Positions 14,121 to 49,442 of a DNA stretch of 64,000 nt are shown here, in pieces (positions within the stretch are counted from its first letter, which is position 1; every line of letters begins with the position of its first letter). Source of the DNA: Halogranum rubrum (GTDB lineage: Archaea > Halobacteriota > Halobacteria > Halobacteriales > Haloferacaceae); assembly GCF_900114455.1 (NCBI RefSeq), contig NZ_FOTC01000001.1, positions 372,001 through 436,000 on the forward strand, in the 5' to 3' direction. A program made the position numbers and the translations under genes. The notes beneath the pieces were generated by a model. It saw nothing but the letters and a program-made list of their open reading frames with translations, was not told where the DNA came from and did not search any database.

Positions 14121-14873
14121 ATGGGCTCGAATAGCACCGATACACACACATCTGACTCATTGCTCGTTCCAGAGCAGAGCTCCCGATCGCCGACACTCAG
14201 TGTCGTGTTGCCAACGTTGAACGAAGCACAAGGGATTGCCACGTGTATCACCAAAGTAAAGCGTGCAATCGCGACGCTCGGTGTCCAGGCGGAAATCATC
14301 GTGAGCGATAGCTCGAGCGACAGTACACCACGTATCGCAACTGAAATGGATGCGATTGTTGTGACACCAGATAAGCCAGGCTATGGGTCTGCGTGTCGCT
14401 ACGGGTTCGAGCGAAGCAGAGGAGACTATCTCGTGATGGGCGATGCAGATACGACCTATGACTTCGAAGAGATTCCTCCACTCGTGGACTGTGTGATGAG
14501 CGACAACGCAGACATCGTCCTTGGGAGTCGATTTGACGGAACCATCCTTCCAGGAGCGATGCCACCACTGCACAGGTATCTTGGCAATCCCTTGCTGACG
14601 AAACTCCTCACCTGCTGTTATGACCTCGAAGTCAGCGATGCACACAGTGGCCTTCGGGTTCTCTCTCGAGATGCCTATCAGACATTGCAACTCGACAGCA
14701 ATGGCATGGAGTTTGCCAGCGAGATGCTTATGGCTGCACAAGCTGAAGGGCTGCGGATTGAAGAGCTCCCAATCACCTATCATGAGCGCGTTGGTGAGGC
14801 AACACTGGAGAGTTTCTCTGATGGATGGCGTCATCTCAAGTACATCGTGAGCAATCGCTCGGAGTATCAGTGA
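14121..14873 (+). CDS. GT2 family glycosyltransferase (dolichol-phosphate sugar synthase-like)
   Basis: This is a 250-residue soluble GT-A enzyme. The nucleotide-binding start is LSVVLPTLNEAQGIATCI and the metal-binding motif is MGDADTTYDF (about residue 110). The acceptor region is SDAHSGLRVLSRDAYQTL, similar to the DPM1/AglJ group that loads sugar on polyprenyl phosphate. No C-terminal membrane helices are present. The stop codon overlaps the GTG start of the sulfatase-fold gene by four bases, so the two are almost certainly made together. An A/T-rich TATATAT abuts the ATG, so the true start could lie slightly downstream. Confidence 0.85.
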   Translation: MGSNSTDTHTSDSLLVPEQSSRSPTLSVVLPTLNEAQGIATCITKVKRAIATLGVQAEIIVSDSSSDSTPRIATEMDAIVVTPDKPGYGSACRYGFERSRGDYLVMGDADTTYDFEEIPPLVDCVMSDNADIVLGSRFDGTILPGAMPPLHRYLGNPLLTKLLTCCYDLEVSDAHSGLRVLSRDAYQTLQLDSNGMEFASEMLMAAQAEGLRIEELPITYHERVGEATLESFSDGWRHLKYIVSNRSEYQ

Positions 14874-16351
14874 CTACCCGACCGAACGTCGTCCTCCTCG
14901 TGTTGGATACCGCCCGAGCTGATTGTGTCGATACAGTTCAGCCAGCGGCTGTGACACCGAACATCGCTGCTATTGCAGAATCGGGGACTGCTTACACAGA
15001 AGCGTTCAGTAGCGCCCCATGGACAATGCCATCGCACGCGTCGCTTTTCACAGGCACCTACTCATCGACACACGGGGCCCATGCCGGTCATCGACGCCTC
15101 GGACCTGACCTCATCACACTACCAGCGGCATTCGCTGACCATGGCTATGAGACCGTCGCCGCCTCGAACAACGCGTGGATAAGCGACGCCTTCGGATTCG
15201 GTCGTGGTTTTGAGACCTTCTACCGGGGGTGGCAACTGGTTCAATCAGAGACGGATCTCGGCGAAGTCGGACTTACGAACAACGGGCGAGCGTTGTGGCT
15301 TCGGTTACTGCATCGACTGTTCGATGGGAATCCACTTACGAACACACTCAATGCAGCCTACGCCAAATTCCGGTTCAGCTCTCGAGGCGATAGCGGTGCT
15401 GCTCGAACAACTGAGTGGGTCCAAGAGTGGCTGCAGACCCGCTCACAGGATCGCCCGTTCTTCCTCTTTGGAAACTATCTGGAACCACACCTCGAGTATC
15501 AGCCGCCGAAATCCTATGCACAGCAGCATCTTCCAGACGACGTGTCATACGACGAAGCGATGGCTATCCCCCAGAATCCATGGCGCTATCTGACGAACCA
15601 ACTCTCGTTGTCCGAGCGTGACTTCGAGATTCTCCGAGGGCTCTACAAGGCAGAACTCTCCTATCTCGATTCCCACATCGGCGCACTCTGTGAGACCCTT
15701 CGCGCGACCGACCAGTGGGAGAACACACTGTTCGTCATCGTCGGTGATCACGGCGAGAATATCGGTGAACACGGATTGATGGACCACCAATACGGGCTTT
15801 TCGACACCCTCCTGCATGTCCCACTCGTCATCACGGGGGGGTCGTTTACCAACGGGGGACAACGGGATCAACTCGTCCAGTTGCTCGATGTAGTGCCGAC
15901 GCTGCTCGACGAGACAGATCTCGCTGCGCCTGCCTTGCGGGATCAACTGGCTGGGACGTCACTGCCCCACCCTTCCGAGCAAGGTCGGACGCACGTCTTT
16001 GCGGAGTACAAAGCACCCCAACCCACTCCAGAGACGATTGAACAGCGGGTTGGTGACCCACACGATGTGATGTCGACGTACGACAGAGCACTCCATGCAG
16101 TTCGGACCACCGAGCACAAACTCGTTCGAGACTCACGGGGAGAGACTGAGCTGTACGATGTGACTGACGGTGAGAGCGAACTGTCGTGTTCAAATCACCC
16201 GACGACGACGGCACAGCTTAACTCGAAACTTGAGCAGTGGCAGTCGTCGCTGGACTCTGCTGAATCGGCGACGCAGGTCAAACCTGATGAGAACACAGCA
16301 CAGATTTTAGACGCACTGGGGTATCTCCAAGTGGACTCTGACTCGAAGTGA
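14870..16351 (+). CDS. Sulfatase-fold (alkaline phosphatase superfamily) enzyme with Thr nucleophile
   Basis: This 493-residue protein starts at a GTG that overlaps the GT2 stop. Metal-site motifs are clear: VLLVLDTARADCVD near the start, VGDHGENIGEHG near residue 295 and a downstream DTLLHVPL segment. The position of the modified Cys/Ser of true sulfatases is Thr52 in APWTMPSHASLFTG. The enzyme may therefore use threonine directly, as phospho- and phosphoglycerol transferases do, rather than hydrolyse sulfate esters. No signal peptide or membrane helix was seen. It is coupled to a glycosyltransferase, so glycan modification is likely. Confidence 0.85.
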   Translation: MTTRPNVVLLVLDTARADCVDTVQPAAVTPNIAAIAESGTAYTEAFSSAPWTMPSHASLFTGTYSSTHGAHAGHRRLGPDLITLPAAFADHGYETVAASNNAWISDAFGFGRGFETFYRGWQLVQSETDLGEVGLTNNGRALWLRLLHRLFDGNPLTNTLNAAYAKFRFSSRGDSGAARTTEWVQEWLQTRSQDRPFFLFGNYLEPHLEYQPPKSYAQQHLPDDVSYDEAMAIPQNPWRYLTNQLSLSERDFEILRGLYKAELSYLDSHIGALCETLRATDQWENTLFVIVGDHGENIGEHGLMDHQYGLFDTLLHVPLVITGGSFTNGGQRDQLVQLLDVVPTLLDETDLAAPALRDQLAGTSLPHPSEQGRTHVFAEYKAPQPTPETIEQRVGDPHDVMSTYDRALHAVRTTEHKLVRDSRGETELYDVTDGESELSCSNHPTTTAQLNSKLEQWQSSLDSAESATQVKPDENTAQILDALGYLQVDSDSK

Positions 16352-16410: not shown

Positions 16411-18135
16411 ATGCCGGGAGTATCTATTCGCCGTCGCGCAACGACGACGCCAGCTGTTGCCCTCTCATATCTGCTGGTAGTGTGCAGCATTGGCGCGCTT
16501 CGAATCGGGTCACTCCCGGTTGGGCCGTGGGAGGACATCTATACACAGCTCGCTGGGTTCTGGTTGTTTCTCTTTGCGGGTCACCTACTGATGCTGTGGG
16601 CCGTGCGCTGGCGACGGCTTGGGTGGGCGACCGTCTCGACGTTCACACTCATTGCAACGCTGGCTATCGTCAGTATGACGCTACAGTGGGGCTATCCGTT
16701 CGGACTCCACGACCCATGGGTCCATCTCGATACACTCACCACAGCCCAACTGAATCCGGTGAACAATCCCTATCCGCTCTTCCATGCACTCCTCCTCGCT
16801 GTGACAGCGCTCACCGAGCTTAGTAAGCAGCAGGTCCTCATGGGCGTGCCCATCATTGCTGTGAGTGCTGGCATCGGGTTTCTCTCCATGCTGATGCGAC
16901 GAATTCCCCTCTCGGCTGTCGCTGGACAGACACTCCTCATCGTGGGTGCTCCGGCATTGCTCCTCGGCGTCATCGCACGGCCATTCACCCTCGCGATGCC
17001 GTTCGTGTTGGTCATTTACTGGGTGGTCTATGCGTTTACTCCACGTCGGGCGATGGCGGTACTCGCTGTTGTCCTCACCTTTCCACTGCTGTGGCTCCAC
17101 CCCTTTGTTGCGTTCTGTGCACTCGTCATCATCACGACTGCCTTCGTCGCTCGTCTATTCTGGGTGGATGACCAGCAGTACAGACCGGGCTGGAAGCTCA
17201 CAGCCATGCTGTCTCTTTTGGCTGCTGCGTTCGTCGTCTATGTCGCCTTCGTCTCGTCGATTGGACAGCAGGTGATTGCGTCGATCATTGAAACGGTTGG
17301 CTCGCTGCAGACGCAATCGCCTCCAGCGGCCACAGACGGACCCACGCAGACGCAGCCATCCCTCTTCGCAAAGCTACTCACCCCACGGGGAGCGGTGGAA
17401 GCACTCGCTCGGTTAGCCTACGTCCTGTCGCTTGGGTTTGCAGCTGTCGTCTCACTGCTTCTTCCCTCGCCGTCGCGTCGGTTCTGGCACAACTCGCTGG
17501 TTGTCATGGTCGCTGGGTCGCTGATTGGGACGGCGCTCCTTGTGGGGGCAGTACTCTCAACGAAGGGGATTACAATCTATCGAGTCGTCCAAGTGGCTCC
17601 GCTGCTTGTCCTCCCGCTCGCAATCGGTGTATTTCGACAGTACTCGAAGCGACCCCATGAACTCCTCGCTGTCGGGTTTGCTGTCATGATTCTCATTGCG
17701 GGTCTCGGAACTGCATTTGGCTCTCCCGTGACTGGGAAGGCCACCTACTCGGCAACCGAGCCACAGGTTACAGGGGTGCAGTGGGTCGCACAGCACCGGA
17801 CAACAAACATCATCGGGACGTGGATGACGTTCTGGATCATCGAAGGCATGTATGGAAAGCCAGCGAGTTACCGCTGGTCTCCGGGCGACATGATTGGGAA
17901 GCAACGCTACGAAGAGCGTTCGGCGGCATATTCGTGGTTAGTAAACGATCAGGAACCAGATGCGCTCTATGTCGTCGATCGGGTCGAACGGACCCGTGCA
18001 CAGCTGGAAAAGCGAGAATCGAATCGTCGCCAGCCGCTCAACTGCCTGCACCAGTTTCGACAGTTCGGCAACCGTATCTACGACAATCGAGGCACGAGAG
18101 TGTATCTTCGAGGCGAGGCGTCGGTATGTACGTAG
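16411..18135 (+). CDS. Polytopic membrane protein of glycan locus
   Basis: This 574-residue protein has about 12 hydrophobic helices up to residue 440, then a soluble tail of about 130 residues containing a WSPGDMIGKQRYE segment. An early luminal-type motif is FGLHDPWVHLDTLTTAQLN, reminiscent of the acidic first-loop motif in GT-C transferases. The C-terminal soluble part also fits that layout, so a GT-C-like transferase or polymerase is the best guess. It is not convincing enough to name. It follows the GT2 and sulfatase-fold genes on the same strand. Confidence 0.75.
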   Translation: MPGVSIRRRATTTPAVALSYLLVVCSIGALRIGSLPVGPWEDIYTQLAGFWLFLFAGHLLMLWAVRWRRLGWATVSTFTLIATLAIVSMTLQWGYPFGLHDPWVHLDTLTTAQLNPVNNPYPLFHALLLAVTALTELSKQQVLMGVPIIAVSAGIGFLSMLMRRIPLSAVAGQTLLIVGAPALLLGVIARPFTLAMPFVLVIYWVVYAFTPRRAMAVLAVVLTFPLLWLHPFVAFCALVIITTAFVARLFWVDDQQYRPGWKLTAMLSLLAAAFVVYVAFVSSIGQQVIASIIETVGSLQTQSPPAATDGPTQTQPSLFAKLLTPRGAVEALARLAYVLSLGFAAVVSLLLPSPSRRFWHNSLVVMVAGSLIGTALLVGAVLSTKGITIYRVVQVAPLLVLPLAIGVFRQYSKRPHELLAVGFAVMILIAGLGTAFGSPVTGKATYSATEPQVTGVQWVAQHRTTNIIGTWMTFWIIEGMYGKPASYRWSPGDMIGKQRYEERSAAYSWLVNDQEPDALYVVDRVERTRAQLEKRESNRRQPLNCLHQFRQFGNRIYDNRGTRVYLRGEASVCT

Positions 18136-37030: not shown

Positions 37031-38146
37031 TCATATTTCGTCAGCTGTCCCGATAAACTCTCTAGACATCTGATGAATGTCCATAGGATTGTCTCCGTTG
37101 CTATTGTCATCTGTTGTGACAAGCTCTGAATTTATTATTCTTTGAATAACTTCAGCTAACCTATCTGGGTCATCCGGTGGGACAACATTTTCTTCAGGAA
37201 TGAGCATTTTACTTCCAGCCGCCGTTGTAGTAACCACTGGCAAGTTTCGAGACAGCGCTTCGTTTACTACAAGACCCCATGGTTCATGTCGAGACGGTAA
37301 TATAAATAGATCCGATCTGTCGTAGTATTCCCATTTTTGATCACCCCGGACATAGCCTACAAACTTTATTTGTGGAACCAAAGCTGCCTGGTCTCGGAGT
37401 GTCTCATTGAGAGGACCGTCGCCAGCAATGAATAACTCAACTTCATTTTCTTCAAAGCTTCTAACAGCCTCAATTAGAGTACCGATTCCTTTTTCTTCAA
37501 TAAATCTACCCACAAATAGAATAGTGGGTTTTTCGCTTGAAGGCTTAGGGTCCAACTTCTTCACCTTTGGATTTTCAGGTCCCAAGCACTCCCGGGGCAT
37601 TACTTGTGGAGTTATACTAACCTTTTCGCTATTTATACCTCTTGCTCTTGTATATTCTTTGGCGAGTTCAGATAGACCCACTACCTTATCCGCTACCTGG
37701 AACAGTGTTTTCTCATATATGTTTATCATACTATCAAAGTGGAATTTAGAAACCATCTTACTTCTATTGCTTAGATTAGAGCTCCAGTCTGTATCTATTA
37801 ATTCACTCCAAATAACTAGATTAGCGTCAGTAAGAAATATTATTGGAAGACTCATCAAATTGTTAATAATCATGTCTCTCCCCATATTTAATACAATTGT
37901 GTCATAATCTTTTTTCAGAAGATGATATGGTAGAGTATAATTAAAGAGAGCCCCAAAGAGCTCTATATTTGGTAAAAATGTTGCTGTATGGTTTTTAGGA
38001 TCGTAGGTCGTGTCCCAGTCTCGCTCAGGAGAGGAACGCTGACAATAGTAGACATCTAAGGAAGCTTCCTCTCCAATCGCATCAAAGACGGGTGTGCGGT
38101 ACGGTGCAACTAAGTTATGAACTAGCGCCACGGATTCTTCGGTCAT
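37031..38146 (-). CDS. GT4 family glycosyltransferase
   Basis: This 371-residue enzyme has the N-terminal VALVHNLVAPYRTPVFDAI, as in capsule-type transferases that start at a reducing-end sugar. ILFVGRFIEEKGIGTLIEA, then LPSRHEPWGLVVNEALSRN (donor-site Glu), place it in GT4. Codons are clearly more A/T-rich than in the flanking genes. It begins eight bases after the stop of the sulfatase-fold gene, as part of a five-gene minus-strand run (43198 down to 37031). Confidence 0.88.
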   Translation of the reverse strand: MTEESVALVHNLVAPYRTPVFDAIGEEASLDVYYCQRSSPERDWDTTYDPKNHTATFLPNIELFGALFNYTLPYHLLKKDYDTIVLNMGRDMIINNLMSLPIIFLTDANLVIWSELIDTDWSSNLSNRSKMVSKFHFDSMINIYEKTLFQVADKVVGLSELAKEYTRARGINSEKVSITPQVMPRECLGPENPKVKKLDPKPSSEKPTILFVGRFIEEKGIGTLIEAVRSFEENEVELFIAGDGPLNETLRDQAALVPQIKFVGYVRGDQKWEYYDRSDLFILPSRHEPWGLVVNEALSRNLPVVTTTAAGSKMLIPEENVVPPDDPDRLAEVIQRIINSELVTTDDNSNGDNPMDIHQMSREFIGTADEI

Positions 38147-38154
38147 ATTTGTAT

Positions 38155-39495
38155 TTAGGCGTATCCAAGTTTTTCAAGTTGAGTCTTTACATCCTCACTC
38201 ACCGACTCGTTTTCAGTTACGGTTCGGTGCTCAATCTGAGCGGCTGCCTTCCGGAGATACTGTTTTGGATTCTCTATTTTAGAGTTAGGTCCGGTTTGAA
38301 TGTCTCCATCGCTTGATTCATAGATATAACCATTATTTTCTGTATAGAGCCCATATTTCCAGTTGGAAAGTTCATCTAGTTCGAGTTCGTCTATTCCTTG
38401 TTCAACAAATTGGTCTCGCATCCAAGGAGTGAATCCATGAAACTCGGTCAGAAATTCCTGTTTAGAATCTAATTCTAGAAGATTCCGTCCTCGAGAGTCA
38501 AGTTCGGTATCGGATAGTTCTCCGATAGTCTTATGAACGTCAAGAATACTCACAGGATGACTGATCTCTTTATTATCTGTATTAGGTCCCGAAACCACTA
38601 AAGGAATATGAGTAAGTTCCGGGAACAAGCCATAACAATGATCGTAGAGATCGTATTCACCAAGTAGCTCGCCGTGGTCTGACAGTGTCAATATAAAATC
38701 AAATTCGTCTTCAAGAAGCGAATAGAGGTTTCTGAATTCGTCTGATAGATAGCGAACTGAATCCCGGTATGCAGTTTGAACTTGTTGTTTGTTTGGTGGA
38801 CTGCCCGTAGTTTTCGAAGGAATACGCCAAGGTTCTGTATTGACTTGTTCCTCTATTGTACGGTATTCTTCAGGTGGTCGATAAGGAACGTGTGCATCCA
38901 TCAGGTTGATGAATACAAATGAAGGTGCTGTAAAGTCCTCATTTTTCAAGTACTGTTGTACCGTTCTTACACCCCCCTTGGAGTAGTCTTGGCGAAATTC
39001 CTGAAAACCAGTTTTTAATGACTCTAACGTTGAGACATCTGGCGAAAAGCACTCTTTAATAGCTTTTATATAAATTTCCCCCCGACTCCCGTTAACTTCT
39101 GACAAAAATTTTGTCCAGTTCACTGCGTTTGAATTTGGGAATTTAAGATCGTCTGGAGATATATCAATATCAAACCCACGGCCCCAGCCACCCCATTGAG
39201 AAACGTTTAAATTTGCAGAATATTTGTGTGTGGAATATCCATTTGAAGAGAGTTCTTCTGCAAGTGTTGGCTCTTTACAATCTAATTGGACGGATTGGCT
39301 ATGAACACCCACTTCGCTTGGATATTTACCAGTAAAAAGCGAGGCATGGGCAGGGACAGTCCAGTGAGAGGTAGTATATGCGTTTTTGAACTTACATCCC
39401 GGAAGCCAATTAAAGTATTTTGTGAAAAAATCGTATCGAAGTGTATCCAATACTACTACTGCAATATTTGGTTTCCCGCTCATCATCTTGACCAT
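38155..39495 (-). CDS. Sulfatase-fold enzyme with Thr nucleophile, second copy
   Basis: This is a 446-residue member of the alkaline phosphatase superfamily. NIAVVVLDTLRYDFF gives the first metal Asp (Asp17), SHWTVPAHASLFTG carries Thr46 where sulfatases have Cys or Ser, and LTLSDHGELLGEYDLYDHC gives the second metal cluster. As with the 14870 protein, threonine suggests a phospho- or phosphoglycerol-transferase-like reaction. ATG codons at 39495, 39486 and 39483 are possible starts. Low GC and its place between GT4 genes suggest glycan decoration, inferred from context. Confidence 0.85.
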   Translation of the reverse strand: MVKMMSGKPNIAVVVLDTLRYDFFTKYFNWLPGCKFKNAYTTSHWTVPAHASLFTGKYPSEVGVHSQSVQLDCKEPTLAEELSSNGYSTHKYSANLNVSQWGGWGRGFDIDISPDDLKFPNSNAVNWTKFLSEVNGSRGEIYIKAIKECFSPDVSTLESLKTGFQEFRQDYSKGGVRTVQQYLKNEDFTAPSFVFINLMDAHVPYRPPEEYRTIEEQVNTEPWRIPSKTTGSPPNKQQVQTAYRDSVRYLSDEFRNLYSLLEDEFDFILTLSDHGELLGEYDLYDHCYGLFPELTHIPLVVSGPNTDNKEISHPVSILDVHKTIGELSDTELDSRGRNLLELDSKQEFLTEFHGFTPWMRDQFVEQGIDELELDELSNWKYGLYTENNGYIYESSDGDIQTGPNSKIENPKQYLRKAAAQIEHRTVTENESVSEDVKTQLEKLGYA

Positions 39496-39583: not shown

Positions 39584-40786
39584 TCATCTCAGAATATCTT
39601 CGTAGATCGAGATTATCTCGTCGATATGATTGCTAATACAGTATGACTTAGTTTCTTCTACCTGTGTTTGGATTTCGTCATAGGGGAGAGAGGCGGCCCG
39701 TTCAAGAGCACCTTGTAATGAATCAACATCATTTGGCGCAAATAGAATTCCAGTCTCGCCATCAGTAATAAGTTCGGGTATGCCACCGATATTCGCACCA
39801 ATTACAGGTGTACCGCGATTATAACTTTCATAAATAACCATCGGAGAATTGTCGTACCACCGAGAAGGAACCACCGTGAAATGAGACGCAGCGTAGGCAT
39901 CTTGGAGTTCTTCGTCATCAACGAACCCATGAAAAGTAATGCGTGGCTCATCGGATGCGAGGTCCTCAAGCTTAGATGATTCTGGACCCTTCCCGTAGAT
40001 ATTCAAATGAAGGTTTTCTAAAGAGGATTTCCGCACTGCCTTAATGAGAATATCAATTCCTTTCTGGTGAGTGTGTTGTCCAGCAAACATAAGCTGTAGT
40101 TGATCTGAATTGGAAGGTCGACTTGAGACTGAATCGGTAGATTTAGACGAAATCCCTAGTGGTACACGAGAGCACGGAACAGTTGAATAAACTCCCTCTG
40201 AGTGATGTTTCTCAAGGACAAACTGAGAAGGAGACACTACATAATCAAGATGAGGCTCTACTAGTTGTCGGTAGATTTTCTGGTAGGGTTTCATTCCTAT
40301 CCCTGGGTCCGAAATCTTTTCTCCATCAAAGAGATTCGTTCGCACATGAAGAGCCTCGTAATCGTGTAGAGTGTGAACAACCGGGATCTCATGACTGGAG
40401 ACTGCTGCAAATACTGATGGAGAAAGACCACTATGGTTATGTATGTGAACTATATCTGGGGATATCTGGCACAGTTTTTTCTTCACAAGTAGATATACAT
40501 GAGGATTCCAGATGTCTACTACATGTTGGATTGGTTTCTTCCAAGCTGAAACAGATTGGTGTTCAATAGGGGAGTAAGCATTCAAAGGAGTAAATCGATA
40601 GACTGTTGCCCCACCAAGTTCGGATTCCTCAAAGGAAAAATAGGTTCCTCCACTAGAGGAGCGTGTAGTAATGACACTCACATCATGGCCTCGGTTGACA
40701 AGTTCGTTTACATCAGCTTTTGCATGCTTTTCAGCACCACCTACAACTTCTGGAGGAAAGAGGTTTGAGATGACGCAGATGTCCAT
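39584..40786 (-). CDS. GT4 family glycosyltransferase
   Basis: This 400-residue protein starts MDICVISNLFPPEVVGGAEK, the typical acceptor-side GGAE motif. The donor half shows LMFAGQHTHQKGIDILIKA, VVPSRWYDNSPMVIYESYN (donor Glu) and IGGIPELITDGETGILF. Its ATG follows the stop of the gene at 40787 with no gap. The region is A/T-rich. Confidence 0.9.
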   Translation of the reverse strand: MDICVISNLFPPEVVGGAEKHAKADVNELVNRGHDVSVITTRSSSGGTYFSFEESELGGATVYRFTPLNAYSPIEHQSVSAWKKPIQHVVDIWNPHVYLLVKKKLCQISPDIVHIHNHSGLSPSVFAAVSSHEIPVVHTLHDYEALHVRTNLFDGEKISDPGIGMKPYQKIYRQLVEPHLDYVVSPSQFVLEKHHSEGVYSTVPCSRVPLGISSKSTDSVSSRPSNSDQLQLMFAGQHTHQKGIDILIKAVRKSSLENLHLNIYGKGPESSKLEDLASDEPRITFHGFVDDEELQDAYAASHFTVVPSRWYDNSPMVIYESYNRGTPVIGANIGGIPELITDGETGILFAPNDVDSLQGALERAASLPYDEIQTQVEETKSYCISNHIDEIISIYEDILR

Positions 40787-41953
40787 TTATTTTGCCTCCT
40801 TCTCAACAAGATTTTGATAGACTTCTTCCATCTTTTTGCTTTGTCTCCTCCACGAGTAATTTTCAGCACAGAATGTGTGCCCTCTTTCATTAACCGAGCG
40901 TTGGTGATTAATAACGGATCGGATACCAGCTGCTAATGCTTCTGGGTCGTGACGATTAACGACTTCGCCTAAGTTAGCCGCACGAACATCATCGGCAACT
41001 CCAACAACATCAGTCGTAACTACTGGTGTCCCACAAGCAAGAGCTTCCAACAGAACTAACCCAAACCCTTCCTGATCAGAAGAGAGTGATGGAAGAGCAA
41101 AAACGTCTGACGAGCTATAAATTGCAGGCAGTTCCTCATCTGGGATGTAACCCTTGAAATTCACGCTATTCTCGATCCCCAATTTTGCAGCTATCTTTTC
41201 ATATTTTGATCGTGCTTCGCCATCACCGCCAACTATTAATTGAACGCTCCGGCCATCATGTTCATTCAATAACTTTATTGCCTGAAGAAGAACGTCTAAT
41301 CCTTTGTAATCGTGAGACCTATTTAACACACTCAAGAAGAAAATCGTTGGAGTATCGGGGTTAATCCCGTGAGAACGTTGCGACTCTTGAGATAGAGACT
41401 GGGGCTGAAATCGCTCAATATCCACTCCATTACCAACCACAGTTATCTTGTCCTTGTATTGACTCAGCTGTTTAGATGATTCAATATAATTTTCTTGTGT
41501 GATGATTATTTGATCCGCCGAACGTAGAGTTGCTCGGAGAACTGTAGAGTTGTATGCTTGGGATATGTAATCTGCAATTCCGTCGCCGATAATGTCGTTA
41601 TGATAAGTTATTACCGTCGGCGTATTAGTGAGTTCACCAACTAGGGTAGAGATGTCCGCTGACCAGGGTGTAGGGAGGTGAGTATGGAGGATGTCTGCGT
41701 TTTTAACTTCCTGTAAAAGGGCAACTGGCAGCATAGGCGTTAGCTCCGTGTATGCAATCTGTCCGACGCTAGTCAGGCGTCGAGTAGTGATTCCACCGGG
41801 AAAATCATCGATATGTTCCTCACTCGGGTGATTAGGACAGACAACTTTAGATGTATGTCCCAATTCTGAAAGGCGTTTAGATAAGTCGTGGACATATGTT
41901 TCGACTCCTCCGGTATGGGGATAAAAACGACCAGGTGTCTGAATGATTTTCAT
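40787..41953 (-). CDS. GT4 family glycosyltransferase
   Basis: This 388-residue protein starts at ATG 41953 (MKIIQTPGRFYPHTGGVETY). A GTG three codons upstream is less likely because a weak GGTG ribosome-binding site precedes the ATG. Motifs: LHTHLPTPWSADI, FFLSVLNRSHDYKGLDVLL and SSDQEGFGLVLLEALACGTP. It lies 19 bases after the upstream GT4 and directly abuts the downstream one, so it is an internal operon gene. Confidence 0.9.
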   Translation of the reverse strand: MKIIQTPGRFYPHTGGVETYVHDLSKRLSELGHTSKVVCPNHPSEEHIDDFPGGITTRRLTSVGQIAYTELTPMLPVALLQEVKNADILHTHLPTPWSADISTLVGELTNTPTVITYHNDIIGDGIADYISQAYNSTVLRATLRSADQIIITQENYIESSKQLSQYKDKITVVGNGVDIERFQPQSLSQESQRSHGINPDTPTIFFLSVLNRSHDYKGLDVLLQAIKLLNEHDGRSVQLIVGGDGEARSKYEKIAAKLGIENSVNFKGYIPDEELPAIYSSSDVFALPSLSSDQEGFGLVLLEALACGTPVVTTDVVGVADDVRAANLGEVVNRHDPEALAAGIRSVINHQRSVNERGHTFCAENYSWRRQSKKMEEVYQNLVEKEAK

Positions 41954-41971
41954 GGATGTCACACCTTAGAA

Positions 41972-43198
41972 TCAATATTTATATCTGTCGCTTTCTTCCT
42001 TCACTAATTTTTTGTAGACTGACTCGGATTTTATAGCCACCTTATCCCAGGAATAATTTTTAGCTACCTTTTGCCCTCTTAAGGATAGCTGAGCTTGTTT
42101 CGTTTCGTCGTCATATATCCTACTTAGGCTACTTGCAAAGGAAGATGAACAATCTGCGTCTACAAATTCAACAGATGACGACGGAATCCAACTCCGAAAA
42201 ATTGGGAGATCATTTGCAACAACTGGGATCCCCGCAGCCAGTGCTTCCAATACTACAATCCCAAACCCTTCCTGTCTAGAAGGCGAAACAAAGACGTCCG
42301 ATTGCTTTAGAAGTCCAGCTTTGGTTGATTCTTCGACGTATCCAAGAAATTCAACATTATCCTCAATGTTCAGTAGTTGACATTTCTCGATATACTGATC
42401 TCTTTTTGGACCTTTTCCTGCAATTGCAAGCGTAGCGTCTGGGCACTTAGTCACAACCTCAGCGAATGAATCTAGTAAGCGATCTATTCCTTTTCTGTGT
42501 ACTAAGCGAGATATTGCCACAAAGTCGTACTTCAGATCATCCGAATATACTGGATTCGTAGCATATTCGTCGAGGTGAATACCATTCGGAATAACGGTGA
42601 CCGGTGAGCGAACACCAAAATCTTTGAGCTCCTGTTTTGTAACTTCATTTGGGACAACCACAGCATCGTAAATCCCTATACGAAGTGAGTTCTGAGCTAT
42701 TAATTGAATTAACCCAATTATTGGGTTGTATTTGCGCAACGCAGTTTGGTCATGGAATTCGTGGACAATCGCAGTCGCTGGTATGCCGAGGATGGGAGCA
42801 ATTAGACCAGCCAGTGACGGGTGGGGTGTTAGATTATCTATAGCAATATCAGTCTCTTTTATACCACCATCTAATAAGTATACAAGTGAAAAAAGAGCAA
42901 AAAGAGAGCGAGAAAGGTAGAAATACGCCGATTCAAATCGTGCGAGCCAGTCTGGCACGGTCTTTATCGTCCGTACTGTTACCCCTTCATCACGACGAAC
43001 TGGTGGGAGATTTGGGTCTGATCGACCACAGACAAGCGTCACATTATGACCCTCTTGAGCGAGAAAAGTTGCTTCCTCCCACATTCGCACCTCACCACCA
43101 CCAGCAGCATCTGTCGATGGATCTTCATTATTAAAATAAGTGATAGCGAGCGATTCCGACTCTGGGTCAACTGACGAAGTAGTGCTTTGACTTCTCAT
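41972..43198 (-). CDS. GT4 family glycosyltransferase, first gene of A/T-rich operon
   Basis: This is a 408-residue enzyme. The N-terminal DAAGGGEVRMWEEATFLAQ forms the acceptor-side loop. The donor side has FVAISRLVHRKGIDRLLDS and SPSRQEGFGIVVLEALAAG. There is a hydrophobic stretch near residue 95 (FYLSRSLFALFSLVYLL) that may contact the membrane. It is the 5' gene of the five-gene minus-strand run. Upstream lie 280 A/T-rich bases without a recognisable gene and then a decayed IS5. Confidence 0.88.
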   Translation of the reverse strand: MRSQSTTSSVDPESESLAITYFNNEDPSTDAAGGGEVRMWEEATFLAQEGHNVTLVCGRSDPNLPPVRRDEGVTVRTIKTVPDWLARFESAYFYLSRSLFALFSLVYLLDGGIKETDIAIDNLTPHPSLAGLIAPILGIPATAIVHEFHDQTALRKYNPIIGLIQLIAQNSLRIGIYDAVVVPNEVTKQELKDFGVRSPVTVIPNGIHLDEYATNPVYSDDLKYDFVAISRLVHRKGIDRLLDSFAEVVTKCPDATLAIAGKGPKRDQYIEKCQLLNIEDNVEFLGYVEESTKAGLLKQSDVFVSPSRQEGFGIVVLEALAAGIPVVANDLPIFRSWIPSSSVEFVDADCSSSFASSLSRIYDDETKQAQLSLRGQKVAKNYSWDKVAIKSESVYKKLVKEESDRYKY

Positions 43199-44677: not shown

Positions 44678-45592
44678 ATGAATCCTATCAAGATACTCGA
44701 GAAGTTGAAAGGTGCGAAATACCACGAGATCGCGACTACTATCAACTCACGCTTCTATGGTAGGATTGGTGCTGACACATCAGTAGATGTGATGGCCGAA
44801 GACTGGGATAGCCTTGTCATTCTGGATGCGTGTCGGTATGATATGATGGTTGATCTGGCTCCTTCTAACTGGAATGTACAGTCACGCCGGTCTCCAGGTA
44901 GCGACTCTTCTGAATTCATAGAACGCTCATATGTTGGTCGCGAACTCCACGATGTCGTCTATGTGACATCAAATCCTCATGCAACTAACATCCCGGAGGG
45001 AACTTTCCATGCCGTTGAGTATCTTCTCGACGAATTTTGGGATTCAGACTACCAAACTGTGATGCCGGACACAATGGTGGAACAAACTCTCAAATCCCAT
45101 CAGAAGTACCCTAACAAACGAATTATTTCACACTGGATGCAGCCGCACTTCCCATTCATCAGTGACTTTGGGCAGAAACTTCGGACCACAGGCATCGGCG
45201 AAAAAAGCAACAAGGCAGAATATAGTGAGGCACCACATCCTTGGGTTGCGCTCATGGAGGGTGAAGATATCGAGTCTGATGATGTAGTCCGAGCATATAT
45301 CGAGAATCTTCGAGAGGCGATGGGACCGCTCCGTGAGCTAATCGACAAAATGCCTGGCAAGACGATAGTGACCGCCGATCATGCGAATCTAACCGGCGAA
45401 CTTACTCTTCCCGTTCCGCTCCGGACGTATGGGCACCCCTCCAATTTCCACAAGAAAGAACTCGTCACTATCCCCTGGATTGAATTTGAAAGTGACTCAA
45501 GGCGAGACATTCGGTCTGACGAACCACAAACGACGGCCGACCTTTCAGATGATGTGGTATCTGACCGCTTGGAGAGTCTGGGCTACGTCTAA
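44678..45592 (+). CDS. Alkaline phosphatase superfamily (sulfatase-like) protein of glycan locus
   Basis: This 304-residue protein is shorter than the two other sulfatase-fold proteins. The first metal motif is LVILDACRYDMMVD (about 50-63). The nucleophile region is RRSPGSDSSEFIERS, with Ser/Thr rather than Cys. The second metal motif is TIVTADHANLTGE, followed by RTYGHPSNFH. Such proteins recur beside flippases and glycosyltransferases in haloarchaeal surface-glycan loci. The flippase gene starts three bases after its stop, so they are co-expressed. Confidence 0.75.
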   Translation: MNPIKILEKLKGAKYHEIATTINSRFYGRIGADTSVDVMAEDWDSLVILDACRYDMMVDLAPSNWNVQSRRSPGSDSSEFIERSYVGRELHDVVYVTSNPHATNIPEGTFHAVEYLLDEFWDSDYQTVMPDTMVEQTLKSHQKYPNKRIISHWMQPHFPFISDFGQKLRTTGIGEKSNKAEYSEAPHPWVALMEGEDIESDDVVRAYIENLREAMGPLRELIDKMPGKTIVTADHANLTGELTLPVPLRTYGHPSNFHKKELVTIPWIEFESDSRRDIRSDEPQTTADLSDDVVSDRLESLGYV

Positions 45593-45595
45593 CAG

Positions 45596-47125
45596 ATGTC
45601 AGATGACAACGCTGCCCAGACTATTTTCAGCGGCGCTGCAATCGTCGTTATCGGGTTGCTCATCAGTGCTGTCGTCGGCTTCGGGATTCGGTTGGTTGTG
45701 GCACGCAGTCTGTCCACTACTGACTACGGTCAGTTTGCGTTGGGACGAAGTCTCCTTCTGAGCCTTGGCATCTTCACCGTTATGGGTCTGCATGACGGTC
45801 TCGGACGATACCTCCCGCGGACCTCGTCCGCGAACGAGGAACGTGGGTACATTGTCTCGGCGGTGACGATGGCACTGGGCGTCTCGCTGACGGTGGCTAC
45901 CGTCGGCATCATATTCGCCAATCAAATCGCCATGTTACTCAACCAGCCCGACGCAGCGACTATGCTCCGAGTGTTCCTTATTGGCCTTCCAGGACTGGCG
46001 GCTGTGCGCTTGGCGATGGGTGGGATGCAAGGCAACGAACGTGCCTTCCCTCGCATCTTCATGGAGCAGATTACGCTCCCGCTCTCGCAGTTGGGGTTAG
46101 CCGCTCTAACAATATGGCTCGGCGTCGAGGCATGGCTCATCGGACTCGGGGTTTCCGCAGGCTACCTCATCGCCGGTGCGTTCGGTCTCGGGTGGCTACT
46201 GTACCGAACGAATCTCGCCGACCGTGCGATCGTTCCAGAGTTAAAATACAGGACACTGCTGGCGTTCTCACTTCCTCTCGTCCTCTCGGGGATGATGTTC
46301 CAAGTGCTCACCCGGATGGACATCTTCCTGCTGAGTTACTTCACGGGCGACTCGGGGCTGGTCGGGACGTACGACGTCGTCTACCCACTCGCAACACAAC
46401 TCACACTGTTGCTCACTGCCGCGGGTTTCCTGACGATGCCCGTCTTATCGCGGCTTGACAACGAGGGAGATCACCGAACGATGCGTGAGACCTACTCGCT
46501 CATCACGAAGTGGATTCTCCTGGTCACGCTCCCTGTCGCGGGCGTGTTCATCGCCTTCCCCGATACGATTATCCGCTACACGTTCGGGGCAAAGTACCTC
46601 TCGGGCGCAGTCGCGTTGCAGATTCTCGCGCTGGGATTCGTCACACACACTATTGTCGGCCCTAACGGAAACGTCCTCAAGGCTCTCGGCAAGCCCCGCT
46701 TGCTACTGGTGTGCACGGTTGTGACGGCGGCTATAAACACCGTGTTGAACGTTCTGCTCATTCCACGATATCAGTTGATTGGGGCGGCTCTCGCGACAAC
46801 CCTCAGCTATGGGGTGTTCAATTTCACCGTGAGTGGGATGCTATACCGCGAAGCACGACTGCTCCCGCTCTCACGGCGAACACTCGCAGTGGGGGCGGTC
46901 GGCGCAGGCACATTCGTGGGAGTGTATCTTTCGACCAAGTGGCTGGCGGTCGACGGCTGGCAGGCAATATTGACCGTTTGTTTGCTGTTTGCACCAGTCT
47001 ATTTGACTTCCTTACTGCTGTTTGGAGTCACAGAAGCGGAGATTGACTTACTCAACCAAGTCGAGAAGTCAATCGGGCGAGACCTTGGATTTGTCAGACG
47101 ACCGCTTGAGCGAGTCACACGGTGA
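45596..47125 (+). CDS. Polysaccharide flippase, Wzx/AglR type (MOP superfamily)
   Basis: This 509-residue protein has about 14 membrane helices, the usual number for the family. The beginning (IFSGAAIVVIGLLISAVVGFG and VVARSLSTTDYGQFALGRS) is characteristic of oligosaccharide flippases, as is FGAKYLSGAVALQILALGF near the tenth helix. It should move lipid-linked glycan from the cytoplasmic to the outer face of the membrane. It is coupled to the upstream sulfatase-like gene. GC content is high again here, unlike the island at 37-43 kb. Confidence 0.9.
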   Translation: MSDDNAAQTIFSGAAIVVIGLLISAVVGFGIRLVVARSLSTTDYGQFALGRSLLLSLGIFTVMGLHDGLGRYLPRTSSANEERGYIVSAVTMALGVSLTVATVGIIFANQIAMLLNQPDAATMLRVFLIGLPGLAAVRLAMGGMQGNERAFPRIFMEQITLPLSQLGLAALTIWLGVEAWLIGLGVSAGYLIAGAFGLGWLLYRTNLADRAIVPELKYRTLLAFSLPLVLSGMMFQVLTRMDIFLLSYFTGDSGLVGTYDVVYPLATQLTLLLTAAGFLTMPVLSRLDNEGDHRTMRETYSLITKWILLVTLPVAGVFIAFPDTIIRYTFGAKYLSGAVALQILALGFVTHTIVGPNGNVLKALGKPRLLLVCTVVTAAINTVLNVLLIPRYQLIGAALATTLSYGVFNFTVSGMLYREARLLPLSRRTLAVGAVGAGTFVGVYLSTKWLAVDGWQAILTVCLLFAPVYLTSLLLFGVTEAEIDLLNQVEKSIGRDLGFVRRPLERVTR

Positions 47126-47584
47126 ATAGAGGTATGAACAATACACTGGGAATATCTGGCGACGCACCGCCGAGGCGGACGTCTCCTCTGAGAGTGGTCG
47201 TTCAAGGAGTTCATCGACATGATCTGACGGGCAACGTGGACGACCCTTGCTATACATCGGGCCGTCCCCGTAAACCGACCACCGGACGACCGGTTTAACC
47301 GGTAATCACTGACCAGGCTAGCCTTCGGCAGGAGTGGTGCCGCTGTCGGCGGCAGCCGCCGTCGACAGCGACAGCGCTCCTTCGGTTCATCCAAGATTCT
47401 ATCGTTGAGGTCTTCAGTGCAACCGCTCCACCACAGAACTCAGGCTTCAGAAACAGCTAGCCGAGGGTGCTTTGTGAGATATTGATGCTGTAATTACCAT
47501 TAAAACAAGCACTGGCTTTTTGACCTCTATTCTTCTTATTATACTCTCTATGATCATTCTATCTGTTGGTTCTGAGTTGGTTCC
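47126..47584. other. Gene-poor gap with an inverted repeat
   Basis: No reliable gene is visible. CCGGTT-T-AACCGG lies at 47290-47302 as a compact inverted repeat. A GC-rich stretch at 47140-47220 has codon-like periodicity and reads EWSFKEFIDMI in one frame before stops, which suggests a decayed gene I cannot name. Confidence 0.4.
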
Positions 47585-47592
47585 TTATAAAG
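47585..47592 (+). promoter_or_regulatory. TATA box for the 47616 gene
   Basis: TTATAAAG is centred 28 bases before ATG 47616. This supports that start over earlier in-frame codons. Confidence 0.6.
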
Positions 47593-47615
47593 ACTGTTCA
47601 AACAAAACCTATATC

Positions 47616-49442
47616 ATGGCGCGTACAAGGTTGTCGATAGTGACTGGTAGTTCTTATCTAAACAAGACTTCAAAACTCGTGGCGACGCTTGGGTTCTTGG
47701 GTATTTCGTTGTCTGTGATTTCCGCCCGACTTAGACCAACAACGGGCTATGAAACAAATATCTATTTAGATGCAGGGGTAATCTTTTGGATTGGGTTAGT
47801 ATTCGTATTGCTCTCTGCAGTATGGTTATTATTCTACTCTAATCATCCCAGTGTTGGGGCGTTTTTTGCACTCTGTGCGCCGATACTCATCGCAGGGATA
47901 CCTATTTTTAGAGGCATGGAATATGTCGGCTATTTTGACGCAATGGTGCATCTCGGCTGGGTTCAAGATCTCATCGCTGGCGAGCAAATCTTATCTTGGA
48001 CTCTTTATCCTGCATACCCCATTCTGGTACTAGCTTGGACTCGTGTTCTGGAGGTTTCACCTCAATATGCACTTTTGTTAACAGTTTCTGTTGGCTATCT
48101 TGTGTACGCAACAAGTACAATCTCTATCTCAAAACGGCTTGTGAACGCAAATATTCCAATACGAGGTGTGTACTTTTTGCCCATGCTATTTTTGCCAATT
48201 ATTCCAATAAATCTCCCGCGGTTGGCGCCTCTACCGACTGTTTTCGGCCTATTATTTGGGAGTTCAATCGTCCTCTATGGGATGATTCACACACAATCTG
48301 TGTCAAACAAACATGCTCCTGGTCTGCTTGTATTGCTAATTGCGTTGTCTCTCATACATCCACAGCAAGCACTCGTTGGATTCGGCCTACTTGCGGGCAT
48401 TGCAACCGTATGGGGGCACCGATCCACACGCAGGTATTCAATTATATTTGCTGCTGCAATTTTCTTAACTTGGTTTTTGCTCGGTCGTCCGGGGTTTATT
48501 GGCGCGACACAGAGCTTAGTAGGTGCGATTGTGACTACATCAAGTACCACTGTTGGCCCTGGTGCAGGAGCGACCACCGCGCTTGGGGCACTCGGAGGTA
48601 GCCTAGTCGAGATTGGTGTCAAAGTGCTCGGCGTGTCGGTGGTTGTTGCAATAGTTGCCCTCACAACACTCAAGACGGATGTTTTGCCAGTTATTTTGAA
48701 CAATCAGGACCCCTACAAGAGGCTGATAACCGGCATAGCAATCGGATTGATCCCCACATTTGGACTGTTTGCAGTGACTCTTGTTGTAGAGGGAGACCTC
48801 GCCCAGGCACTCCGATACGTCGGCGTGATGTTGGCCTATGGAGGCTGTCTAGCTATTGTTCAACTCGCCCGATTTAGGCAATGGGCAAATGAGCGAATCT
48901 CAAAGCGTCATCTAAGAGTGATTGGAACTATTGTCGTTGTAATTGCAATAGTCGTCAGCGTACCCGTCGCTTACAAATCTCCGTATATGTATAAGCCCTC
49001 ACCAGAAAACAGCGAGTCGCAGTTTAAAGGCTACGAAACTGCATTTAAGTACCAATCAGAGCGGCCGATGGTATCCACTGCAACAAATGTATATCGTTAT
49101 CAGACAGCCATCTACGGCGCGTCAAGATCGAGATACGGCCATGGCGGTGTGCGGCCCATCTCTTCGAGAGTTAATCCTCCGGACATATCAAAAAATAGCG
49201 GCGGATTTTTTAAGTCTTATGTGCCAAACCATTACCGTAATCTCTCATCAGTGTTACCAGAATCAAGCTATCTCGTTGTGACCGAATATGCTCGGGGCCG
49301 GCACGTTGAATTGTATCAGGGTCTTCGGTATTCGAAGTCCGATTTCGACTCGTTAGAACGCCACGACAAAGTCGTCTCTACTGGAGAGTTTGAGCTATAT
49401 CTCGTTGATACACATAATTCTACGTCACGTCGGTCTATCTGA
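47616..49442 (+). CDS. Polytopic membrane protein of glycan locus, GT-C-like layout
   Basis: This protein has 608 residues from ATG 47616. Roughly 11 to 13 hydrophobic helices (to about residue 460) are followed by a soluble tail of about 140 residues (for example VVTEYARGRHVELYQGLRYS). A loop after the third helix reads GMEYVGYFDAMVHLGWVQDL, similar in place and acidity to the HDPWVHLDTL loop of the 16411 protein. Both may be GT-C-type transferases or glycan polymerases, but no family can be assigned with certainty. Confidence 0.75.
   Translation: MARTRLSIVTGSSYLNKTSKLVATLGFLGISLSVISARLRPTTGYETNIYLDAGVIFWIGLVFVLLSAVWLLFYSNHPSVGAFFALCAPILIAGIPIFRGMEYVGYFDAMVHLGWVQDLIAGEQILSWTLYPAYPILVLAWTRVLEVSPQYALLLTVSVGYLVYATSTISISKRLVNANIPIRGVYFLPMLFLPIIPINLPRLAPLPTVFGLLFGSSIVLYGMIHTQSVSNKHAPGLLVLLIALSLIHPQQALVGFGLLAGIATVWGHRSTRRYSIIFAAAIFLTWFLLGRPGFIGATQSLVGAIVTTSSTTVGPGAGATTALGALGGSLVEIGVKVLGVSVVVAIVALTTLKTDVLPVILNNQDPYKRLITGIAIGLIPTFGLFAVTLVVEGDLAQALRYVGVMLAYGGCLAIVQLARFRQWANERISKRHLRVIGTIVVVIAIVVSVPVAYKSPYMYKPSPENSESQFKGYETAFKYQSERPMVSTATNVYRYQTAIYGASRSRYGHGGVRPISSRVNPPDISKNSGGFFKSYVPNHYRNLSSVLPESSYLVVTEYARGRHVELYQGLRYSKSDFDSLERHDKVVSTGEFELYLVDTHNSTSRRSI

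Follow-up and report, generated by a model that had tools for sequence, protein, structure and literature searches.

The window, a stretch of 64,000 nucleotides from Halogranum rubrum, carries three genes for sulfatase-fold proteins, here called p1, p2 and p3. The p1 gene (14870..16351, plus strand) is preceded by a GT2 glycosyltransferase gene (14121..14873, plus strand) that overlaps its start, and is followed on its 3' side by the gene of a protein with 13 hydrophobic segments and no Pfam or NCBIfam match (16411..18135, plus strand). The glycosyltransferase matches Pfam Glycos_transf_2 and resembles AglJ or a dolichyl-phosphate hexosyltransferase, with NCBIfam matches below the cut-offs. 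Two starts are possible for p1, ATG at 14825 or GTG at 14870. The latter shares bases with the stop of the glycosyltransferase gene before it and agrees with the starts of relatives. The Thr at the nucleophile position (codon 15023-15025, within WTMPSHASLFTG) is residue 67 counted from the ATG and residue 52 counted from the GTG. Its motif is TMPSH, and in the AlphaFold model a helix begins exactly at Thr67 (pLDDT 83.9). p1 matches PF00884 with E 3e-37 and also Pfam Phosphodiest with E 9.5e-14. Its fold comparison is led, over the whole length, by S1 sulfatases with Z of about 40, with 6HHM (Z 40.4) tied with the top, and by sequence it is closest to sulfatases as well (4uph, E 6e-24), the LtaS-like 3lxq reaching only E 1e-5. 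Asp28, Asp308 and His309 are conserved at the places of the superfamily metal ligands, together with His222 and His321.

p2 (38155..39495, minus strand) and four GT4-type ORFs form a run on one strand. One of these ORFs (37031..38146, minus strand; NCBIfam matches below cut-off) lies 8 bases downstream, and the other three follow one another upstream (39584..43198, same strand as p2), their GT4 assignment coming from our own models and not from Pfam. The protein passes PF00884, and its Thr46 (codon 39358-39360, minus strand) lies in WTVPAHASLFTG with the motif TVPAH. In a phmmer alignment Thr46 falls on Ser54 of 7pth, by its title a C54S mutant of a choline sulfatase, and p2 His50 falls on Arg58.

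p3 (44678..45592, plus strand) is followed by a polysaccharide flippase gene (45596..47125, plus strand; Pfam Polysacc_synt_3) that starts 4 bases past its last base, and a gene beside the flippase (47520-49442) encodes a large protein without Pfam or NCBIfam match. p3 itself matches nothing in Pfam or NCBIfam. A profile comparison nevertheless joins its family to that of p1, though solely over the C-terminal part (probability 99, E 6e-19), in an alignment that pairs the Asp-His and two further His of each and stops short of the nucleophile. The fold of p3 is of the same class as that of p1, with a list headed by EptA/MCR phosphoethanolamine transferases (Z 15.3 versus at most 13.9 for sulfatases). 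Asp50, Asp234 and His235 are conserved at the places of the superfamily metal ligands, and His157 and His253 are conserved in addition; the Asp and His residues at these places in p1 and p3 are putative metal ligands, by their role in the superfamily. The probable nucleophile is Ser77 (codon 44906-44908, local sequence SSEF), in a column that holds Ser in 37 and Thr in 4 of 41 family rows. Ser72 is almost equally conserved (Ser 40, Thr 1 in the 41 family rows), but we prefer Ser77 on the basis of the census alignment and of the AlphaFold model, in which a helix begins exactly there (pLDDT 89.5).

An earlier note on this DNA had read Thr52 in p1 and Thr46 in p2 in place of the formylglycine Cys/Ser, and Ser/Thr in p3. 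The first two are borne out by the motifs, by the alignment of p2 to 7pth and by the helix start of p1, and the third agrees with Ser77. The coupling to glycosyltransferases or a flippase that the note described is likewise found, as a GT2 gene at p1, the GT4 run at p2 and the flippase at p3.

Nucleophile column and signature residues

All 139 PF00884-matching ORFs of 19 genomes of the order, 18 of which had matches, were aligned in a census. The nucleophile column holds Thr in 97 ORFs, Ser in 22, Cys in 16, a gap in 2, and Gly and Asn in one each; the Gly row, the Asn row and one Ser row are iPGM-like. Thr at this column is the common state and no oddity of the three loci, and the idea that it marks an unusual subgroup was rejected, Thr being the majority state. 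Thr or Ser in 119 of the 139 census ORFs is not chance. As early as 2016 it was pointed out that 30 of the 59 PF00884 seed sequences carry Thr (PMC5066984).

The two types differ beyond the nucleophile. Arg at +4 is present in 16/16 Cys-type and 0/119 Thr/Ser-type census ORFs. A second alignment, made of 131 census rows together with p3 and 9 further relatives, has 15 Cys and 126 Thr/Ser rows; in it His321 (p1 numbering) is found in 123 of the 126 Thr/Ser rows versus 2 of the 15 Cys rows, while His222 is common to both (125/126 and 15/15). A C-terminal LxxLGY tail is carried by 114/126 Thr/Ser rows and 0/15 Cys rows, and by 1 of 761 ORFs of random regions, which are mechanical ORFs and in many cases not genes. 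In a tree built without the motif columns the Cys versus Thr/Ser state requires 3 changes, compared to at least 12 in 200 shuffles, and with the motif columns kept it requires 1; the trees are quick searches that leave out three iPGM-like rows and five fragments. FGE (PF03781) is matched in 17/117 genomes and PF00884 in 113/117. Of the 12 genomes with Cys-type ORFs, 10 are absent from the 17 FGE-matching genomes, assuming that both draws are identical. In the window genome one sulfatase-like gene is split into two overlapping ORFs, possibly through a frameshift (G000:C6:735794-737192, L190).

p1, p2 and p3 fall in three separate clades, p1 and p2 both outside the Agl31-like Ser clade, and the single group proposed in the earlier note is not recovered. 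Its restriction to haloarchaea does not hold either: 50 of the 246 genomes searched in the phylum have a match to the p3 family, of which 41 belong to the order and 9 do not, these 9 matching at E 1e-8 or better and 5 of them below 1e-50, and the Thr of the Pfam seeds points the same way. A scan of viral contigs using p3 gave no relative. In two places a widespread Thr-type protein (VAPAPWTLPVH) adjoins a p3-family match with internal stops (L221:4884-6560 with G007:C14:24190-25095; L256:4458-6035 with G024:C1:260768-261703); such matches may be copies that stop short of the LGY tail.

Glycosyltransferase neighbourhoods

Neighbours were sought within 5 kb by GT2 and GT4 models built from the window proteins and their matches, after removal of the three iPGM-like rows and of two fragments that lack the column. 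Of the Thr/Ser-type genes 83 of 118 have a GT2 or GT4 gene as neighbour, against 2 of 16 among the Cys-type (Fisher p 1e-5); the neighbour counts are not independent, and four regions contain both types. When regions are counted once, the figures are 52/84 for the Thr/Ser-type and 2/16 for the Cys-type (p 3e-4). Random 11-kb regions contain a GT in 4 of 40 cases (p 2e-8 versus the Thr/Ser-type), from which the Cys-type regions are no different. One of the two Cys-type neighbours, in genome G014, looks to us like a trehalose-phosphate synthase. By clade, a GT lies within 5 kb in 7/11 cases for p1, 4/7 for p2 and 7/9 for the Agl30/p3 type.

A strict rule that Thr means a glycan cluster was rejected. 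The Thr-type set defined by the motif GNWTPFSFP has a GT neighbour in 0/10 cases and yet the LGY tail in 10/10, so that a glycan role cannot be predicted from Thr alone. The tail does not separate the contexts (72 tailed genes with GT and 32 without; 11 tail-less with and 3 without). The link to glycan loci thus holds for the Thr/Ser class in general and not for each of its members.

Several loci in other genomes bring these genes together. In Halegenticoccus tardaugens (L103) a p1-like gene occurs together with GT4, GT2, an Agl30-like gene and a flippase, and in Haladaptatus pallidirubidus (L117) the closest named relatives of p2 and p3 among the matches listed lie less than 3 kb apart, with GT4, GT2, an Agl30-like gene and a flippase. 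Two genomes have a Cys-type sulfatase gene that shares 4 bases with a p1-like Thr-type gene (L232:4665-7585, L278:4665-7552).

Comparison with Agl30, Agl31 and VNG1063H

Agl30 (VNG1056C) and Agl31 (VNG1057C) of Halobacterium salinarum have been named sulfotransferases and placed in the alkaline-phosphatase-like superfamily. Deletion of either lowers N-glycan sulfation, and on heterologous expression each sulfates the Haloferax volcanii glycan; Agl30 was located in the membrane fraction, and the best structural match reported for Agl31 is 6HHM (PMC11980604). The main text of that paper does not contain the words threonine, formylglycine, PAPS, nucleophile, active site or catalytic. Deletion of VNG1063H, which lies in the same N-glycan cluster, leaves N-glycan sulfation as in the parent (PMC11980604). 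Elsewhere among haloarchaea, a motility transposon insertion was found in the sulfatase gene hvo_0069 (PMC5198076), and a sulfatase gene is part of a putative Halorubrum N-glycosylation pathway (PMC6137143).

We compared the three Halobacterium proteins only through peptides translated from the published primers (PMC11980604), which do not cover the nucleophile. The VNG1056C primers encode DFGHLDM, ITDRTV and the end HLEDLGYL, and near-identical peptides occur in p3-family proteins of four loci (L064, L063, L057 and L058). p3 groups with Agl30-like proteins including those of L057 and L064 (13 rows, SH-aLRT 98), its closest rows being the G021 and G026 copies (support 70), and its sequence identity to the Agl30-orthologue rows is 25 to 28 percent. 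By these peptides and this grouping, Agl30 is to be counted in the family of p3. The VNG1057C primers give the end LEELGYT, the tail of the Thr/Ser class; for their short peptides the best match in a single protein is only 6/12 letters. The window genome has a second pair at G000:C16:107408-109857 (L183), where an Agl31-like-clade Ser-type gene adjoins an Agl30-family gene, as VNG1057C does VNG1056C.

VNG1063H, whose primers encode VHYFQPH and KELGYIE, is probably also a p3-family member. The motif H[YFW].QPH is carried by 37 of 41 p3-family rows. Among the 139 census rows it occurs in 9, every one of them in the Agl30/p3 clade, and among the 761 ORFs of random regions in 1. Since this likely family member has no detected role in sulfation, membership is no guarantee of role, and p3 may be nearer to VNG1063H in kind.

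Proposed sulfuryl transfer, its rivals and the donor

The explanation we favour, with no better than even confidence, is that p1, p2 and p3 are alkaline-phosphatase-superfamily group transferases, probably cytoplasmic, which would decorate lipid-carrier-linked glycans, most likely with sulfate, as Agl30 and Agl31 do. In this reading the donor would be soluble, and its sulfuryl (or phosphoryl) group would be bound by the Thr or Ser as a covalent ester before being handed to a hydroxyl of the sugar. Sulfate leaves a formylglycine diol spontaneously but would not leave a Thr/Ser ester, which favours transfer over hydrolysis. Agl30 and Agl31 resemble the window proteins in the sulfatase/alkaline-phosphatase fold, the setting in a glycan gene cluster and the LxxLGY C-terminus, with p3 inside the Agl30 family, but p1 and p2 belong to other Thr-type clades. 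From the FGly-dependent S1 sulfatases and phosphonate monoester hydrolases (SpAS2, 6HHM, choline sulfatase), with which p1 shares the whole-length fold, the Asp/His of the metal site and the conserved His222, the window proteins differ by Thr or Ser in place of Cys, by the missing Arg at +4 and by His321, where Cys-types mostly differ. The C/S-x-P-x-R signature of S1 sulfatases is absent from p1, p2 and p3, while the hydroxyl nucleophile and the Asp-His pair of EptA/LtaS-type enzymes are present in the sequences of all three. No PF00685-type sulfotransferase domain was matched in p1, p2 or p3 at E 0.001. The proposal of the earlier note, transferases acting on lipid-linked glycans and not sulfatases, thus stands in part: the hydroxyl nucleophile, the lack of the Arg, the glycan context and the kinship of p3 to Agl30 speak for it, and the GNWTPFSFP set without GT and VNG1063H (PMC11980604) speak against it.

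That the three proteins are ordinary sulfatases, with Thr tolerated or converted to a carbonyl, is very improbable. Their Pfam and fold matches point to sulfatases and the window genome has one FGE homologue, but Arg at +4 is confined to the Cys-type ORFs of the census, FGE is matched in far fewer of the 117 genomes than PF00884, and oxidation of Thr would yield a ketone, formylglycine from Thr never having been demonstrated (PMC5066984). We also consider it unlikely that p1, p2 and p3 are hydrolases, phosphodiesterase- or phosphatase-like, which trim or recycle glycan intermediates in a neighbourhood of mere glycan metabolism. Thr-nucleophile phosphodiesterases (NPP) are known in the superfamily, and this precedent, the Phosphodiest match of p1 and the Cys-type sulfatase gene overlapped by p1-like genes in two genomes count for hydrolysis. 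Agl30 and Agl31 nevertheless add sulfate, in Haloferax volcanii included (PMC11980604), and the kinship of p3 to Agl30 argues in the same direction.

That the three proteins provide glycans or lipids not with sulfate but with a phosphorus group of the phosphoethanolamine, phosphoglycerol or phospho-sugar kind, as EptA and LtaS do, is possible, if somewhat doubtful, and we rate it less likely than sulfo-transfer. EptA and LtaS are anchored in the membrane and act outside the cell, and EptA/MCR enzymes have Thr as the nucleophile, Asp-His metal ligands and a further two His. p1, p2 and p3 resemble this pattern in their residues, p1 and p3 also in the hydroxyl nucleophile at a helix start, and the lead of EptA/MCR structures in the fold list of p3 counts on the same side, as do VNG1063H and its unchanged N-glycan sulfation (PMC11980604) and the window genome, which has no clear match to the sulfate-activating enzymes considered below. 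However, the sequence match to EptA/MCR and LtaS is weak, p1 standing closer to sulfatases than to LtaS, and Agl30, of the family of p3, was found to sulfate glycans by mass spectrometry (PMC11980604). The window proteins may also differ from the anchored enzymes in hydropathy, with highest 19-residue values of 1.14 (p1), 0.95 (p2) and 0.77 (p3) and no strongly hydrophobic segment or multi-span anchor, although this measure gives at most 1.19 for Agl30 orthologues too, despite the membrane-fraction location of Agl30 (PMC11980604).

For sulfo-transfer the donor has to be considered. An APS kinase match was taken as clear only below E 1e-40, which 6 of 117 genomes reach, the next match being at 1e-6. 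At E 0.001, 113/117 genomes have a match and 112 pass the Pfam cut-off, but the matches beyond the 6 are mostly partial P-loop matches, and the Haloferax volcanii control passes the cut-off as well. That of the window genome is over the cut-off with 24.3 bits and 53/152 positions; the G094 match (E 1e-6) extends over the greater part of the model and could be genuine. Sat is matched in 3/117 genomes, and CysD gives weak matches in 111/117 and passes its cut-off in 0/117. The weak CysD-like match is often a protein of ~325 aa (e.g. G000:C8:564721-564882), far below the cut-off. By HMM, the window genome has no clear APS kinase, Sat or CysD match, though a diverged enzyme is possible, and neither has any of the 8 genomes of the draw in genus g44, taken as Halobacterium, in part for an 83% S-layer peptide match in G064. 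A PAPS donor is therefore doubtful and sulfation in Halogranum rubrum is not assured. A literature search on haloarchaeal sulfate donors gave nothing on point, the parts of PMC11665356 consulted included. Because most haloarchaeal genomes searched have no clear APS kinase, Sat or CysD although the Halobacterium glycan is sulfated, we tentatively raise a broader and rather doubtful idea, namely that the LGY-tailed Thr/Ser-nucleophile sulfatase-fold proteins may be a large archaeal sulfotransferase superfamily in which the enzyme forms a sulfo-Thr/Ser intermediate and draws its sulfuryl group from a donor that is not PAPS.

The open-licence literature yielded no paper joining a Thr nucleophile, the sulfatase fold and sulfotransferase function. 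For the relatives Agl30 and Agl31 the idea of sulfuryl transfer is largely in print (PMC11980604), and what is added here is the split by residue, the C-terminal tail and the gap in donor enzymes. Most genomes searched show no clear sign of the usual PAPS route, and so the sulfuryl donor of archaeal glycan sulfation becomes a directly testable question. Thr/Ser-types exceed Cys-types about 7:1 in the census, although the Pfam family bears the name Sulfatase. The split between Cys with Arg at +4 on the one side and Thr/Ser with His321 and the LGY tail on the other would re-label most haloarchaeal members of this family as candidate transferases, and the Cys versus Thr/Ser state would hint at which genomes modify their surface glycans.
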